A DNA stretch of 64,000 nt from Aggregatilinea lenta (lineage in GTDB: Bacteria; Chloroflexota; Anaerolineae; Aggregatilineales; Aggregatilineaceae), in the NCBI RefSeq assembly GCF_003569045.1, contig NZ_BFCB01000003.1:2728001-2792000 (forward strand). The letters run 5' to 3'. The notes beneath the pieces were generated by a model. It was not told where the DNA came from. It searched no databases and saw only the letters and a program-made list of their open reading frames with translations. Below, piece after piece: positions 30,764 through 39,534 of the stretch. A program made the position numbers and the translations under genes. How positions within the stretch are numbered: position 1 is the first letter of the stretch; the number at the start of each line of letters is the position of its first letter.

Positions 30764-31681
30764 ATGAGCGATCCCTTTGAGCCGGTAGAATTCGTCGCTG
30801 AGACGGGTGGCGAGCGACTGGACAAGATGTTAGCGGCGCGGTTTGCGGACCTGTCGCGCTCGCAGATTCAGACTTTGATCCGTGACGGGCAGGTAATGGT
30901 CAACGGTAGGCCGGGCAAAGCTTCGTACCGCGTCGAGGGCGGCGAGCAGGTGCTCGTCAACGTGCCTGTAGTCGAGGTGGCCCCCGCGCCCAGGCCGGAG
31001 GCGATCCCGCTGGACGTGCTGTATGAGGATGAGAGCGTGGCGGTGATCAACAAACCGGCGGGCATGGTGGTGCATCCCGCGGTAGGCCACGCGGGCGGCA
31101 CGTTGGTGAATGGCGTGTTGGCGCGCTGGCCGGAGATCGCCGCCTTCGGCGAGGTGGACCGGGCGGGCATCGTGCACCGTCTGGACAAGGAGACGTCCGG
31201 CGTGATCGTGATCGCCAAGACGCTGACAGCGCTGGAAAACCTGCGGCAGCAGTTCAAGGATCGCGCCATCTCCAAGCGCTATATCGCGCTCGTGGACGGC
31301 GTGCCGGAGACGAGCGAGGGCGTGATCGACGCGCCGATTGGCCGCGACACGGCGCAGCGCAAACGGATGTCGGTGGTCCGCGATGGCCGCGAATCGATGA
31401 CCGAATTCCGCGTGTTGGAGACGTTCAACGACTACGCGTTGATCGAAGCATTCCCCAAGACGGGCCGTACGCACCAGATCCGCGTGCACATGGCGTTCGT
31501 TGATCATCCCGTGGTGGGCGACACGGTCTACGGGCGGCGCAAGCAGGGTCTCAAGATGAAGCGGCACTTCCTGCACGCGGCCTCGATCACCTTTGCGCAA
31601 CCGGACACGGGCGAGCCGATCACGGTCGAAGCGCCGTTGCCCACCAGCTTGCAGGCCGTGTTGGACAGGCTGCCGCGCTGA
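30764..31681 (+). CDS. RluA/RluD-family pseudouridine synthase
   Basis: 305 residues. An N-terminal S4 RNA-binding domain (about 15-70: RLDKMLAARFADLSRSQIQ) precedes the synthase domain with the catalytic HRLDKETSG (Asp at about 142) and TGRTHQIRVHM (about 237-247). This order matches RluD/RluC, which modify uridines of 23S rRNA. The exact target cannot be read from sequence. Confidence 0.93.
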   Translation: MSDPFEPVEFVAETGGERLDKMLAARFADLSRSQIQTLIRDGQVMVNGRPGKASYRVEGGEQVLVNVPVVEVAPAPRPEAIPLDVLYEDESVAVINKPAGMVVHPAVGHAGGTLVNGVLARWPEIAAFGEVDRAGIVHRLDKETSGVIVIAKTLTALENLRQQFKDRAISKRYIALVDGVPETSEGVIDAPIGRDTAQRKRMSVVRDGRESMTEFRVLETFNDYALIEAFPKTGRTHQIRVHMAFVDHPVVGDTVYGRRKQGLKMKRHFLHAASITFAQPDTGEPITVEAPLPTSLQAVLDRLPR

Positions 31682-31735
31682 TAGGAATGGGCCCGGAAAA
31701 CACGGCGCGCGAGCGACGTGCACGGCCCGGCATTG

Positions 31736-31764
31736 TTGCGAGAACGGGGGTTTGGCGCTACAGT
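31736..31764 (+). promoter_or_regulatory. Candidate promoter of the nitrilase-fold gene
   Basis: TTGCGA (31736-31741), a 17-base spacer and TACAGT (31759-31764), identical hexamers to the fhs promoter candidate, about 72 bases before the ATG. Confidence 0.55.
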
Positions 31765-31835
31765 ACCCCACCAGGGACTCGATGCATATTCCCCGTTGAA
31801 AAAAAGCCACTCATCCCCACAAATGAGGAGAATCC

Positions 31836-32768
31836 ATGCGTGAGATCACGGTTGCCACGGTTCAAATGAAACCGGCCCTGGGCGAGATTGAAGACAATCT
31901 GGTGAAGATGTCCGAGTTTGTGTCCAAAATCGCCTCGCAGCAAAAAGTTGACCTCATAGTTTTTCCAGAACTGATCACCAGCGGCTACGAACTGGGTGTG
32001 CGCTTCACCGAGCTGGCGCAGCGCATCCCCGGTCCCAGTGTGAACGTGCTGGCACAGCGTGCCGCCGAATTTGGTGTGTATATCGCCTTCGGCATGGCGG
32101 CCAAAGAGCGCGTCGAGAGCGTGCTGTATAACTCGGCGGTGCTGGTCGGCCCGGATGGCGAGCTGGTTGGCAACTACAACAAGATCCACCTGCGCGGCGA
32201 AGAGCGCATGGCCTTTCGCGAAGGCTTTCGCCTGCCCGTGTTCGAGACGGAGTTTGGCGTGCTGGGCCTGATGCTGGGCTGGGATTTGGCGTTCCCCGAA
32301 GTCGCCCGTTCCCTGACGCTTGAGGGCGCGGAGCTGCTGGCCGTCATGGCGAACTGGGAAGCCGACCAGATGGAAGAATGGCGGACCTTCGTGCGCGCCC
32401 GCTCCTATGAGAACGGCCTGTTTGTGGCGGCGGCCAACCGCGCCGGTGAAGACGTCACGCTGAGCTTCGGCGGTGAAAGTATGGTCGTCGGGCCGGGCGG
32501 CAAGACGTACGCCTACCTCGAAACGCCGACGCCGGAGCCGGAAAAGCCCGCCGAGCCGGAGAAGAAGGACGAGGCTGCTGGCGACGAGAAGACGCCCGAA
32601 AAGAAAGCTGAGAAGAAGTCCGCCGCTGAGGCCAAACCGGGCGAGCCGCCGGAGGGCTTCGTCGTGGCGCGTATCGACCTGGAAGACGTGCGCCGCCACC
32701 GTGAGGAACGGCAGACCATCCAGGCGCGCCAGCCATCCGTCTACCGCGCCCTGGTGAGGCGCTACTAG
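31836..32768 (+). CDS. Nitrilase-superfamily protein lacking the catalytic cysteine
   Basis: 310 residues with the carbon-nitrogen hydrolase fold throughout: VATVQMKPALG, LIVFPEL with Glu45, and YNKIHL with Lys116. These are two of the three catalytic residues. At the third, where the family has (I/V)C(Y/W)D, the sequence is LGWDLAFPE with Gly148 (codon GGC at 32277-32279). The protein therefore cannot use the usual thioester mechanism and is probably a pseudoenzyme or binding protein. Residues about 228-272 are a Lys/Glu/Pro/Ala-rich low-complexity insert before the last conserved strand (VVARIDLEDVRRHR). The GAGGAG ribosome site is good and the frame is intact, so it is not a decaying gene. 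Confidence 0.85.
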   Translation: MREITVATVQMKPALGEIEDNLVKMSEFVSKIASQQKVDLIVFPELITSGYELGVRFTELAQRIPGPSVNVLAQRAAEFGVYIAFGMAAKERVESVLYNSAVLVGPDGELVGNYNKIHLRGEERMAFREGFRLPVFETEFGVLGLMLGWDLAFPEVARSLTLEGAELLAVMANWEADQMEEWRTFVRARSYENGLFVAAANRAGEDVTLSFGGESMVVGPGGKTYAYLETPTPEPEKPAEPEKKDEAAGDEKTPEKKAEKKSAAEAKPGEPPEGFVVARIDLEDVRRHREERQTIQARQPSVYRALVRRY

Positions 32769-32803
32769 CGTCTTGAGCGCCCGCGCAGGGCAGGTGAGGG
32801 ACC

Positions 32804-33034
32804 ATGATCGACGGCGAGCAGAATCACGACCAGCCCGAAGATGAAACGGCCTATGTCGGTGCGCCGACTGAATACGCAGACTCGCAGGAAATGCCGGACT
32901 GGGTGCAGAGTGGCGTCAAGGTGCTTGTCGCCATCCCGGCCCTGATCGCAACCCTCAGCGTCATCGAGCTGGTCTTGTTCTGTGGGGTCGCCGTCGTCGT
33001 CGTGCTGGTGGCGCTGTTTTTCATAGTCCTGTAA
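32804..33034 (+). CDS. Small membrane protein, 76 aa
   Basis: A hydrophilic acidic N-terminus (about 1-35) is followed by a hydrophobic stretch from about 38 to 76, enough for one long or two short membrane segments ending at the C-terminus. GTGAGGGACC precedes the ATG. No family recognised. Confidence 0.6.
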
Positions 33035-33111
33035 ACGGAATATGACCTTTGTGCCCGCCCCGCGTGATCAACGCTGGACGGGTTTTTGTGGACTCCAACG
33101 GAGACTGAGCA

Positions 33112-34149
33112 GTGGATCGAATTGATTTGCGGAGCGATACGGTAACGTGGCCCACGGTGGAGATGCGCAAGGCGATGGCCGAGGCCGCGGTGGGCGACGA
33201 CGTGTACGGCGAAGATCCGACCGTCAACCAGTTGGAGGCTGATGCTGCGCGTCGCCTGGGCAAAGAGGCTGCCCTGTTCGTCTCCAGCGGTACGATGGGT
33301 AACCTCGCGGCGATCCTGGCGCACTGCGGGCGCGGCGACGAAGCGATTATTGGCGATAAGTCGCACACCTTTGAGCATGAAGTGGGCGGTATGGCGGCGC
33401 TAGGCGGCGTTCAGCCGAGTCTGATCCCTGTCCAGGCGGACGGCACGCTGCCGCTCGAGGCGATCCGGCACGCGATTCGCTCGGAGGACGTGCACTACCC
33501 GACGACACGCCTGATCGCGCTGGAAAACACGCAGGGATCCGTGGGCGGCATCCCGATCCCGAAGCCGTACATCGACGTGGTCGGCGCGCTGGCCCACGAA
33601 AATGGGCTGCTGCTGCACATCGATGGCGCGCGGCTGTTCAACGCGGCGACCGCGCTCGACTGCGACGTGGCGGAGCTGGTGGCCGCGGCAGACAGCGTGA
33701 CGTTCTGCCTGTCGAAAGGGCTGTGCGCACCGGTCGGCTCAGTCCTGGTCGGCTCGCACGAGTTCATTCACCGCGCGCGGCGCGTGCGCAAGATGCTGGG
33801 CGGCGGGACGCGGCAGGCGGGCATGCTGGCGGCGGCGGGCTTGATCGCGCTGCACGAGATGACGGGACGCCTCGGTGACGATCACGCCAACGCGCGCCTG
33901 CTGGCCGAAGGACTGTCCGAACTGCCGCAGATCGACATCGACCTGGACCGCGTGCAGACGAATATGGTGTTCTTCAGCCTACGGGACGATGCCGAAATCA
34001 GCGCGCCGGAACTGGCGGAACGGCTGAAAGCGCATAATATCTGGATCATGGCTATGGACGAGCGACAGTTCCGTGCCGTGACGCACTACTGGATTCGCCC
34101 GGAGCACGTCATCGAGGTGCTGGTGGCGCTGCAAGAGGAGTTGTCGTGA
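33112..34149 (+). CDS. ltaE: Low-specificity L-threonine aldolase (beta-eliminating lyase family)
   Basis: 345 residues, a fold-type I PLP enzyme. [12 protein letters not shown] and [16 protein letters not shown] are the family N-terminus. SGTMGNL binds the cofactor phosphate, [11 protein letters not shown] holds the Asp over the pyridine ring, and [13 protein letters not shown] carries the PLP lysine. It splits L-threonine or allo-threonine to glycine and acetaldehyde. It overlaps the next gene by four bases. Confidence 0.93.
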
Positions 34150-34976
34150 ACCGATTATTTGGCGGGCCGGAGCGGCCAGATGAGGATGATCAGCCCGCGC
34201 CGCGCCCGATGCAACCGCTCGACCGCAGCCGTCCGCGCACGAGCTACCCACCGCAGGCGATCCCGCTGCGACAGGATGACGACGTGCCGGACGAAGACGA
34301 GGAGGACGAGGATCTCTGGGAGGACGAGCCGGGGCCGGACGAAGACAAGCCGCGCGCCAGCCGCCAGGATCTCGACCCGGTCTTCGGCTACGTGTTGGCG
34401 ATGGCGCTCAGCGTCGGCCTGACGCCGATCGACACCGACACGCGCTACATCCTGCTGTGGACGTTCCTGGCCTTGATGGGCGGTATGGCGTTCGTGCTGG
34501 GCGGCGGCAAGCCGCAAAAAGCCACCGATCCGGGCGACCTCGTATGGGGCCTGTTCCTGGGCGGACTGAGCGGCGGCGCGCTGATGCTGGTGGGCGGCGA
34601 CACGCTGGCGGTAACCTCGGAGCGGCTGTTCGGCGCGACCCGCAGCGAAAACTCGCTGCTGATCACGTGGGCGATGCAGGCGACCCTGTTTGTCATGCCG
34701 CTGGCGGAGACGCTGTTCTTTAGGGGCGCGATGCAGCGCGTGCATACATTCCTGACGGTGGCGCTGTTGGCGAGCTTGTGGTCGGTGCTGCTGTTCTTCC
34801 CGGCACTGGACCTGGGCGGATCGCCTGCTGTCGCGGTCGTGTACGGCGCCGCGCTGGTGCTGCTCAACTTCCTCTACGGCTACGTGAACTTCCGGCACGG
34901 GCTGGCGGCGAGCCTCGTCTGCCAGATCACGGCGGGATCGCTGCTGCTGCTGGCCCCGATGGTCGTTATGGGCTAG
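34146..34976 (+). CDS. Membrane protein, CPBP/Abi-protease-like but degenerate
   Basis: 276 residues. The first ~80 are Pro/Asp/Glu/Arg-rich and cytoplasmic. About six membrane segments follow. The segment [14 protein letters not shown]-like ([12 protein letters not shown], about 192-203) resembles the EExxxR motif of CPBP intramembrane proteases, but the second Glu is Thr. It may be an inactive relative. It is translationally coupled to the aldolase (ATGA overlap) but has no evident functional link. Confidence 0.6.
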
Positions 34977-36345: not shown

Positions 36346-39300
36346 TCACGTTCGTGTGCGATGCTTGCGCGCAAAATAGCCGTGAATCCAGCGCAGCGCT
36401 TCCAGGGCGTTGCGCGGCTGGCGCTGGCCGGTTTCGAGCTGCTGGGGGAGGCCGCTGCTGCCGAGAACGCGCTCCGTGGCCGAGTCCGCAATGAGGTCGA
36501 TCACGGCGGCCAGGTTCTGGCAGTCCGCCGCGAACTGTTCCTGAACGCGCCGCTGGTTGTACAGCGACAGCGTGCCCCACAGACTGTCCAGCTCGCTGGC
36601 GAGCGCCACCGGGGGTACGCCCGCGAAGCGCTTGCCCTTGTAGGCAGTGTTCAGCCCTTCGAGCAGATGCACCATCGTGTCCGTTTCGCGCAGGAACATG
36701 GCGGCGGAGCGCGTGCCGAACAAGTGCGCCATCGACTCCCGCTCGAGCTTCAGAGGGATCGTGCGGTGATCCGCAAACTGCCCGCCGACGAAGCGCAGCA
36801 GGTCCAGCCCCGACTGTGGTGACGCCTCGCCGCGCACCAGCCGTTCGTGCGGGGTGGTTTTGCGCTGTTTCTCCGCCTCGCTGTGGAGGTCGTAGACCTG
36901 TTCCATGATCTGGAACAGGTTGTCGGCCACGCGTGCGCGCTCCGCTTCGGACAGCCCGCCCGTCATCTGGTCCAGGTCGCGCCGGATGCGGTGGTTGGGC
37001 GGCAGCTCTTTGTCGGCATGGTAGGTGCTGGCAAGGTCGAGCAGGAGCCGCGCCGTCGTGTGGACCGATTCGGAAAAACGCATCAGGCTGGCGTTGTTGG
37101 TGGCCAGCCGCATCAGCCACGAAGCCTGCAGCGCGCGGCCCACGTCCGCCCGCAGCGACTGGGTGAACGAGGCGAGCAGCACGGGAACCTGCTCGTTGCG
37201 CACGCCGCGAATGTAGCGCCGCAGCAGTTCCAGCGCCGCGTCAGACACCTCAGGGTCCCAGGTGATATGCGGCCACATGCGCGTGATCATCACCGCGCCA
37301 TCCGCGCCGGTCGCCAGAATGTGATCGACGAGCGACGCGCCCACACGCAGCGCGTCGAGTGCGTTGCGCTGCTGGCTGTGCAGCGCGAGCAACTTGAGGG
37401 TGTAATCGTAGCCGATGACCTCGATCAGGTGATTGTCGTTGAACACCATTGTCGTCAGCCGCCGCGCCGCGTAGTCGTGCTCGGCGGACCATTTGCCGCT
37501 GAGCAGCGCGCCGCAGAAGATCGCGGTGCGCGGCTCAGGCCGGATCTGGCTGCCTTCCAGGTGGGCCAGCGCGGCCTGCATCTGCCCCGCCGGGAGCGGC
37601 AGCGTGGCGAAAATCTCCCCGGCCAGTTCTGTGAACGCCGGGAAGCGGTCTCCGTGGAACACCACGCTTTGATACGTTTCGAGCAGGGTCATGGCCTGAC
37701 CATAGCTGCCGGTTTGCAGCAGAAGCTGCACCAGCACTCGCGGGCCGGGCGGCTCCAGTGCGGCGATCAGGTCGGGCTGGCTGAAGTCGCTTACGACGTG
37801 CTGGATGAGGGTCGCGTACTTCGCTCGATCGCTCGACTGCGCGATGGTGAGCAGGGCTTGCATGGCCTGGGTGTCGATGAGCGCAATTTTGCGGGTCAGG
37901 ACGGCCCACTCGATGAAGCGTGCCATAATGGTGGCGTGCTGGGCTTCGCCGTACACACGCGCACCATAGTCCAGCACGTGGGGCAGGATAGGCTGCGGTA
38001 CGCTGGCGCTCAAATAGTCGACGGCGGTGCGGGTTGAGTCGGGAAGCTGCTTGGTGAACGCAGCATCGGCCAACAGGCGCTGGAAATCACCCGCGGGCTG
38101 TGACTGCGCGGACAGCAAGAACACGGCATTCGCCAGCTCGGCATAGGTGTGCGTGGCGGGCTGCGCGATGGCGATCATCTCCGGGATGATCGCTTCCAGG
38201 CCCAGGCTGGGGTGAACTTCCTTCAGGCTGCCCAAAAACGCCCGCACGCCGGGTACATCGCCCCGCGCGAGCATCTCTTGCAGGCGGGCTTTGGCGGCTG
38301 CTTGCAGGCTGGGCTGCCACTGTGCCGCGAGTGTATCCGGCACGCCTAGAATCCAGCGCTGGAGCAGCGCGTAGACGGACTCCGCCTGGCCGTTCTGAAT
38401 GGCTGATTGCAGGTGCATTGCGATGTTCGACGCCAGATCGTCGCTGCTGACGGCGATGGCAGGGATCACATCGGCGCAGGCGAGATCGCCCACGGCCAGC
38501 GCCATGCCGATCAGGTGGCGCGCGTAGATCTGGCGCAGATCGGGCGGCAGGGTGGGATCTTCGCGCAGGACAGAAGCCGCCAGCTTGCGATCGACGGGCA
38601 TGCCATCGCGCACAGTCTGGTCGATTGCGGCGCGGCGCGACACCCAGTTCAGCGCCGTGCTCAGATTCTCGCGGTGCATCGTGCGCCAGACCGCCGTGCG
38701 TGCCATGTCATGTGTCTGCCTGACGACAATCGATGCGTCCAGTCGCAGCTGTCGGACGATGTAGGTGCTGTAGGGATGCTGCGGGACCGCCGTCAGCAGC
38801 TTGGCGTTGTCCCAGTCGAAGACGACGTGGTTGTCGGGTACGGCATAGCTGCTCAGGAACTTGATCTGCGCGGGCGACGCCTGTGGTGCGTTGACGTAGG
38901 TCGCGAAGGTCGCCGTGACGCGCGCGGGGACGGGCAGCAAGCCGAGCAGGGCCTGGACGAACTGCAGCCGCTTGGCCGCCGACACCGGGCTGTTTACGAT
39001 GGCGAGTGATTGACCTTCGATCAGGGCGGAAAGCAGCCCTTCAAGCGTTTTGTACGAGTCCTGGCAGATCATCAACAGGTCAAGCAACAGATCGGCCTGA
39101 TCCTGGGGCTTGCTCGGCGTGGGACGGTGAAGCTCAAATGGCACGAGGTTGCGCCGGATGCTGGCAAACGAGGGCATGTCCATCAGTGCCAGCGACTGGA
39201 ACGCGCTCGCGTTGCCTTCGAGGGCGCGCAGCGCCGCGACGGGCGTAAGGATGAACAGCAGCTGCGGATAGCCCGCGTCGTTGCGCTGGGCCTTGGCCAA

Positions 39301-39534
39301 CACGAAGTCGATGCTCTCACCCCGGAACACGCCAAACGCGCCGGGCATCTCCGGGCCGGTGTCGCCGGGAAGCGGCGGGGCCAGCCGAGCGACGCGCAGG
39401 CATTCCGCAACGTGCGCGGGCGTGATCTCGCCCGTCCGCGCGATGACGCCCGGCGTGGGCGAGACGCGTCCGTCTTCGGCGACAAGAGTGCCGAAATAGA
39501 GGCGCTGTAGTTGGAATGTCTCTGGTCCTGGCAC
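36346..39534 (-). CDS. Large (1062 aa) protein, GAP1-N2/GAP1-M-like (GTPase-associated) candidate
   Basis: No signal peptide or membrane segment. The N-terminal ~230 residues (FQLQRLYFGTLV at the start, PGAFGVFRGESIDFVLAKAQ, and LEGLLSALIEGQSLAIV with LLPVPARVTATFATYVN) follow the pattern I recall for the GAP1-N2 and GAP1-M domains, found in bacterial conflict-type GTPase systems. The remaining ~800 residues are mostly helical, with no motif I can name. The assignment is tentative. No GTPase or TIR/effector gene lies next to it; its only operon partner is the lipoprotein downstream. Confidence 0.55.
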   Translation of the reverse strand: MPGPETFQLQRLYFGTLVAEDGRVSPTPGVIARTGEITPAHVAECLRVARLAPPLPGDTGPEMPGAFGVFRGESIDFVLAKAQRNDAGYPQLLFILTPVAALRALEGNASAFQSLALMDMPSFASIRRNLVPFELHRPTPSKPQDQADLLLDLLMICQDSYKTLEGLLSALIEGQSLAIVNSPVSAAKRLQFVQALLGLLPVPARVTATFATYVNAPQASPAQIKFLSSYAVPDNHVVFDWDNAKLLTAVPQHPYSTYIVRQLRLDASIVVRQTHDMARTAVWRTMHRENLSTALNWVSRRAAIDQTVRDGMPVDRKLAASVLREDPTLPPDLRQIYARHLIGMALAVGDLACADVIPAIAVSSDDLASNIAMHLQSAIQNGQAESVYALLQRWILGVPDTLAAQWQPSLQAAAKARLQEMLARGDVPGVRAFLGSLKEVHPSLGLEAIIPEMIAIAQPATHTYAELANAVFLLSAQSQPAGDFQRLLADAAFTKQLPDSTRTAVDYLSASVPQPILPHVLDYGARVYGEAQHATIMARFIEWAVLTRKIALIDTQAMQALLTIAQSSDRAKYATLIQHVVSDFSQPDLIAALEPPGPRVLVQLLLQTGSYGQAMTLLETYQSVVFHGDRFPAFTELAGEIFATLPLPAGQMQAALAHLEGSQIRPEPRTAIFCGALLSGKWSAEHDYAARRLTTMVFNDNHLIEVIGYDYTLKLLALHSQQRNALDALRVGASLVDHILATGADGAVMITRMWPHITWDPEVSDAALELLRRYIRGVRNEQVPVLLASFTQSLRADVGRALQASWLMRLATNNASLMRFSESVHTTARLLLDLASTYHADKELPPNHRIRRDLDQMTGGLSEAERARVADNLFQIMEQVYDLHSEAEKQRKTTPHERLVRGEASPQSGLDLLRFVGGQFADHRTIPLKLERESMAHLFGTRSAAMFLRETDTMVHLLEGLNTAYKGKRFAGVPPVALASELDSLWGTLSLYNQRRVQEQFAADCQNLAAVIDLIADSATERVLGSSGLPQQLETGQRQPRNALEALRWIHGYFARKHRTRT

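Follow-up and report, generated by a model that had tools for sequence, protein, structure and literature searches.

Enzymes of the nitrilase superfamily carry a Glu-Lys-Cys catalytic triad and assemble via dimers (PMC6971011 and PMC4700190, respectively). The amidase-nitrilase of Pyrococcus horikoshii/abyssi has deposited structures that include the C146A variant (1j31, 3ivz; C146A in 6ypa and 7ovg). A second relative is N-carbamoylputrescine amidase (AguB/CPA, TIGR03381, structures 5h8i-5h8l). In the enzyme MtCPA (PMC4812014), the catalytic group consists of Glu48, Lys121, Cys158 and Glu132, the oxyanion hole is formed by Lys121 and the backbone nitrogen of Trp159, and the C158S variant holds putrescine unmodified, the authors mentioning a high affinity for ligands. 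Natural replacement of the Cys is known from the symplectin/vanin-like nitrilases of cephalopods, which keep the Glu and mostly the Lys and have a Ser that the authors regard as a possible nucleophile (PMC5541922). Natural pseudo-nitrilases that keep the rest of the pocket seem scarcely described: the fold and a natural Cys-to-Ser exchange are in print, and a literature search that covered few subscription papers found neither a Gly nitrilase nor a class-wide Gly clade.

The window, the whole 64,000-nucleotide stretch of Aggregatilinea lenta DNA analysed here, encodes a protein of this superfamily that is preceded by a ribosome-binding site:

31836..32768, + strand: nucleophile-less nitrilase-fold protein, 310 amino acids (PF00795 E 2.5e-50; AF2 pLDDT 93.1; PDB match Z 40.2)
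31826..31830, + strand: Shine-Dalgarno sequence AGGAG, 5 bases 5' of the ATG, read from the sequence

The reading frame starts with ATG and has no internal stops. The Pfam CN_hydrolase domain spans residues 5-226 and scores 171.6 bits against a curated cut-off of 23.2, which places the protein in the nitrilase superfamily by homology. It scores below the equivalog cut-offs of the archaeal-type nitrilases (NF040852, 135.1 vs 500) and of CPA (102.5 vs 410.25), the latter being its second-best NCBIfam match; the proteins of L026 and L175 reach 121.5 and 134.5 with the CPA model. The best sequence matches in the PDB are 7ovg, 6ypa and 3ivz (E about 3e-33). An AlphaFold2 model was built from 106 sequences (105 of 121 picked references plus P0001; the 16 left out were mostly long-insert or very distant rows) and reaches a pLDDT of 93.1 and a pTM of 0.89; it was used instead of the model from a smaller alignment of 19 rows, which gave a pLDDT of 54.5. 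Foldseek ranks chains of 6ypa, the C146A amidase with glutaramide, first, and VIA-align superposes the model on 6ypa with a Z of 40.2, an rmsd of 1.2 over 257 residues and 33% identity, in agreement with the nitrilase alpha-beta-beta-alpha fold. Original predictions of a nitrilase fold, an intact frame and a ribosome site are thus borne out. The gene was also proposed to have its own promoter, which we do not support: a sigma-70 scan of positions 31600-33300 returned 0 sites (mean of 0.2 in shuffles), and in many relatives the gene lies 40-160 bases 3' of rluD.

The comparison with the Pyrococcus enzymes (Z 39-40, 33-36% identity in structural alignment) shows the same fold, and the Glu, the Lys and the second Glu align with those of the window protein. 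The active Pyrococcus enzymes, in contrast, carry Cys146, and their Cys-less deposited form is engineered whereas that of the window family is natural. The CPA structures are slightly more distant (Z about 36). Here a Trp follows the nucleophile position, as does Trp159 in MtCPA, but Cys158 has no counterpart Cys in the window protein. The codons concerned are the following:

31968..31970, + strand: Glu45, general-base position of the triad (E in 128/128 family proteins and 48/48 other nitrilases)
32181..32183, + strand: Lys116, oxyanion-hole Lys position (K in 126/128 and 48/48)
32199..32204, + strand: Glu122-Glu123 (E122 in 130/130 family proteins vs 3/66 others; E123 in 126/128 vs 45/48)
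32277..32279, + strand: Gly148, nucleophile position (G in 127 and S in 1 of 128 family proteins; C in 48/48 others)

Glu45 lies in VFPEL, Lys116 in YNKIHL and Gly148 in LGWDLAFPE; all three can be read in the translation, just as first reported. That report gave only Glu45 and Lys116 as retained, and a fourth conserved residue of the superfamily, Glu123, is present as well. The second Glu was set at residue 123 by its spacing to a Phe at +4 and a Gly at +7 in solved relatives, MtCPA among them. We take Glu48, Lys121, Cys158, Glu132 and Trp159 of MtCPA to correspond to Glu45, Lys116, Gly148, Glu123 and Trp149, a pairing made by motif rather than by superposition.

For the counts above, the collected Chloroflexota nitrilase ORFs were split at 225 bits by profile score alone, giving 128 distinct family proteins and 48 others. 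A larger set with extra loci, split by residue and score, holds 130 distinct family sequences from 130 source records (Gly in 129, Ser in one) and 66 others, all with Cys. ORF pieces with fewer than 200 profile positions were left out of the site counts; those that cover site 148 (L203, L204, L206 and L231, the last from the same place as L204) have Gly. The catalytic triad is therefore incomplete family-wide, with the Glu and Lys kept and the Cys replaced by Gly. Glu45 is invariant in all 130 proteins. Lys116 is replaced in L176 (Ala) and L202 (Glu), and Glu123 is a Gln in L040 and L202. With two members lacking the Lys, and one of these (L202) the second Glu as well, retention of the pocket is not without exceptions. 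The single Ser at the nucleophile site belongs to L172.

Overall, 49 columns are conserved at 97% in the family, and the pocket residues rank among the most conserved. While 37 of these columns are common to the Cys enzymes, eight are family-specific (E52, G54, G86, E94, E122, G148, E290 and Y310). Glu122 adjoins Glu123, the second conserved Glu of the superfamily. Position 175 is also acidic (Glu in 117 and Asp in 8 of the 130 proteins), while Pro is its commonest residue in the others (34/66). No highly conserved column in the 130 family proteins offers a replacement Cys; the best, position 169 (98/130), falls within a modelled beta strand. Ser95 was considered as a substitute nucleophile and is probably not one: it is nearly family-specific (127/130 vs 1/66) but is located in a turn between strands 82-90 and 97-104.

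In a sample at the level of the order, 53 of 61 genomes have an orthologue, the window genome included; it is absent from G007, G010, G015, G038, G046, G048, G050 and G058. The 64 loci taken from these 53 genomes include 11 longer duplicates of a place already represented; all 64 carry Gly148, Glu45 and Lys116, so none of these close relatives has a Cys at this site. In the class sample, profile matches at E <=1e-40 are detected in 234 of 396 genomes and at <=1e-60 in 216 of these; these are counts of matches, the residue having been read in a subset. For ten genomes with weaker matches (1e-41 to 1e-50) the best one has a Cys and is thus an ordinary nitrilase, whereas a further weak match, a fragment in G292, carries Gly. 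Only 12 of 301 genomes of the phylum sample match at 1e-50, two of them outside the class: G447, listed with 8% contamination, has a member of the Gly family, and the match of G454 has Cys. Beyond Chloroflexota only contigs were scanned, and the best 80 of 222 confirmed relatives comprise, by record title, 79 from Chloroflexota and one from Bacteroidota. The contig titled Bacteroidetes (L095) carries a family member and is perhaps mislabelled or misbinned. The gene is absent in 10 of 10 listed genomes of genus g35, though most others of its order keep it; this and its absence from some fairly complete genomes indicate that it is dispensable.

With 37 family rows and 31 others, picked by identity from 130 and 66, maximum likelihood yields a tree in which a single branch (100/100 support, stem of 0.79 changes per column) separates the family from the rest, and the support remains 100/100 when the catalytic column is masked. 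Only two state changes are needed at this column, one between Cys and Gly and one between Gly and Ser. On this unrooted tree the change is taken to run from Cys to Gly because Cys is universal in the other nitrilases. Ten of 30 listed sequence pairs, which share members, have dS <0.5, and all ten have dN/dS of 0-0.039; across all 30 pairs dN/dS peaks at 0.314. The loss of the Cys is therefore old, of single origin on the tree, fixed family-wide across a class and under strong purifying selection. This agrees with the initial suspicion that the loss is selected, and makes "conserved pseudoenzyme" a fair description. The G454 protein (L205) was tried as a Cys-bearing direct sister, as no other Cys-bearing protein scores as high or has Glu at 175. 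The tree places it with L262 among the Cys enzymes and its neighbour genes differ, so it is not the direct sister and does not mark the ancestral state precisely. Its gene has those of a dihydropyrimidinase-like amidohydrolase and an M20 hydrolase as neighbours, a setting that recalls the breakdown of hydantoins or pyrimidines (L291:3531-7113, - strand).

The neighbourhood of the gene is the sole functional hint. In the window it comprises:

30764..31681, + strand: RluD-type pseudouridine synthase, upstream (PF00849 and S4)
33112..34149, + strand: GntG/low-specificity L-threonine aldolase-like PLP enzyme, downstream (PF01212; NF041359 505.6 bits vs cut-off 230)
34146..34976, + strand: multi-pass membrane protein, CPBP-protease-like by eye only

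Across 109 loci, some with short flanks so that the counts are lower bounds, the RluD cluster is found in at least 44 (43 of 44 members co-directional), the PLP aldolase cluster (GntG or low-specificity L-threonine aldolase by NCBIfam) in at least 57 and the membrane-protein cluster in at least 50. A Pfam search of the membrane protein and one relative gave no match. The aldolase gene may follow very closely in distant families, with gaps of 0 (L180), 34 (L177) and 51 (L175) bases, and several of them have lspA adjoining rluD (cluster c47, by Pfam of one member). Such linkage speaks for vertical inheritance and might also reflect a tie to amino-acid metabolism, although it does not prove a shared pathway. 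Two further ORFs of the window have no Pfam match. One, of 76 amino acids with a hydrophobic segment (32804-33034, + strand), lies between the nitrilase-like and aldolase genes, and a similar small-ORF cluster occupies the same place in at least 11 of the 109 loci. The other encodes 1062 amino acids (36346-39534, - strand) and has relatives at the same place in several loci of the same family.

The most likely reading, to which we give about an even chance, is a protein whose pocket takes up a small ligand with an amide, carbamoyl or amine group and does not hydrolyse it. Its ancestor would have been an amidase of the nitrilase superfamily in which the nucleophile was lost once, from Cys to Gly, while the rest of the pocket was kept. 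A nucleophile elbow without a side chain cannot form the nitrilase acyl-enzyme, given the established chemistry of the superfamily (e.g. PMC6971011), and the Gly cannot act as the cephalopod Ser might (PMC5541922). The pocket may instead hold its ligand through the Glu pair and the oxyanion hole of Lys and backbone, so that the protein would serve as a ligand-binding subunit, either sensor or regulatory. Laboratory Cys mutants of these amidases, which hold ligands without turnover, offer a parallel, and the additional acidic residues at 122 and 175 would suit a ligand that is polar or carries a positive charge. The binding or regulatory role originally proposed is plausible. Inherited vertically, kept by selection and going back to one loss, the family provides a clean system for the role of a nitrilase pocket once cutting is impossible, and it calls for caution in labelling such genes active amidases in environmental Chloroflexota genomes.

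Among the alternatives, the least improbable, still doubtful, is a structural or allosteric role in which the protein co-assembles into mixed oligomers, either with an active nitrilase paralogue or with the threonine aldolase encoded next door, and its pocket matters little. The superfamily's assembly via dimers (PMC4700190), the four further matched nitrilases of the same genome, all with Cys, and the adjacency to the aldolase gene would fit this arrangement. A purely structural role would, however, not need pocket columns that are among the most conserved, and the aldolase cluster occurs in only part of the loci (57/109, some with short flanks).

Nucleophile loss alone does not prove the loss of all catalysis, and the retention of Glu-Lys-Glu fits catalysis without cysteine about equally well as binding. 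The protein might still be an enzyme that does without a covalent Cys intermediate, with Glu45, Lys116, Glu123 and the newly acquired Glu122 directly activating water or a group of the substrate. We consider this unlikely, and slightly behind the partner role. In its favour, the catalytic residues other than the Cys hardly vary, Glu122 occurs in every family member and sets the family apart, position 175 is acidic in 125 of 130 proteins and the gene often adjoins that of a PLP aldolase. Against it, the literature search found no precedent for turnover without Cys, engineered Cys mutants are seen as ligand complexes in solved structures, and two members lack the Lys. Less probable again is that this class-wide branch of the superfamily gave up covalent Cys catalysis for a new Cys-free reaction, perhaps tied to the PLP aldolase, in an acidic cluster (Glu45, Glu122, Glu123 and Glu175) with Lys116 around the Gly148 cavity. 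A recent mutation, a base error or a decaying pseudogene, which Gly at a catalytic position might suggest if one genome were viewed alone, has next to no probability and is ruled out by the Gly of all 64 order-level loci, of 127/128 and 129/130 distinct family sequences, by the low dN/dS and by the intact frames.

A matter separate from the loss of the Cys is the loop insert of the window protein:

32520..32654, + strand: Lys/Glu/Pro/Ala-rich loop insert, residues 229-273, 45 amino acids (37/45 are E, P, K or A)

This insert has the length and composition first described. In the model it links the last two beta strands (224-227 and 274-281) and stays outside the core elements, and the pLDDT of the block falls to 55. 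The corresponding loop has 7-15 residues in most Gly-bearing relatives (7 in most distant families, 14-15 in most near ones), compared with 33-45 in f3, 12-51 in f8, 47 in the window genome and 54-145 in f7. Clearly long forms are confined to f3, f7, most of f8, L006, the window genome, one f55 member (24) and one named record (87). Insert and Gly were also considered as one clade-defining pair, a co-occurrence that the original prediction proposed to check; this pairing is rejected, as the loop is short in most Gly-bearing relatives and varies within genus g3 (long in L006, short in L027). The insert is a disordered, labile loop whose length has changed repeatedly and independently of the Gly, and it may act as a lineage-specific tether unneeded for the core role. 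In the f7 loci (L043, L050 and others) the loop reaches 118-145 residues in most members and appears coiled-coil-like by eye.
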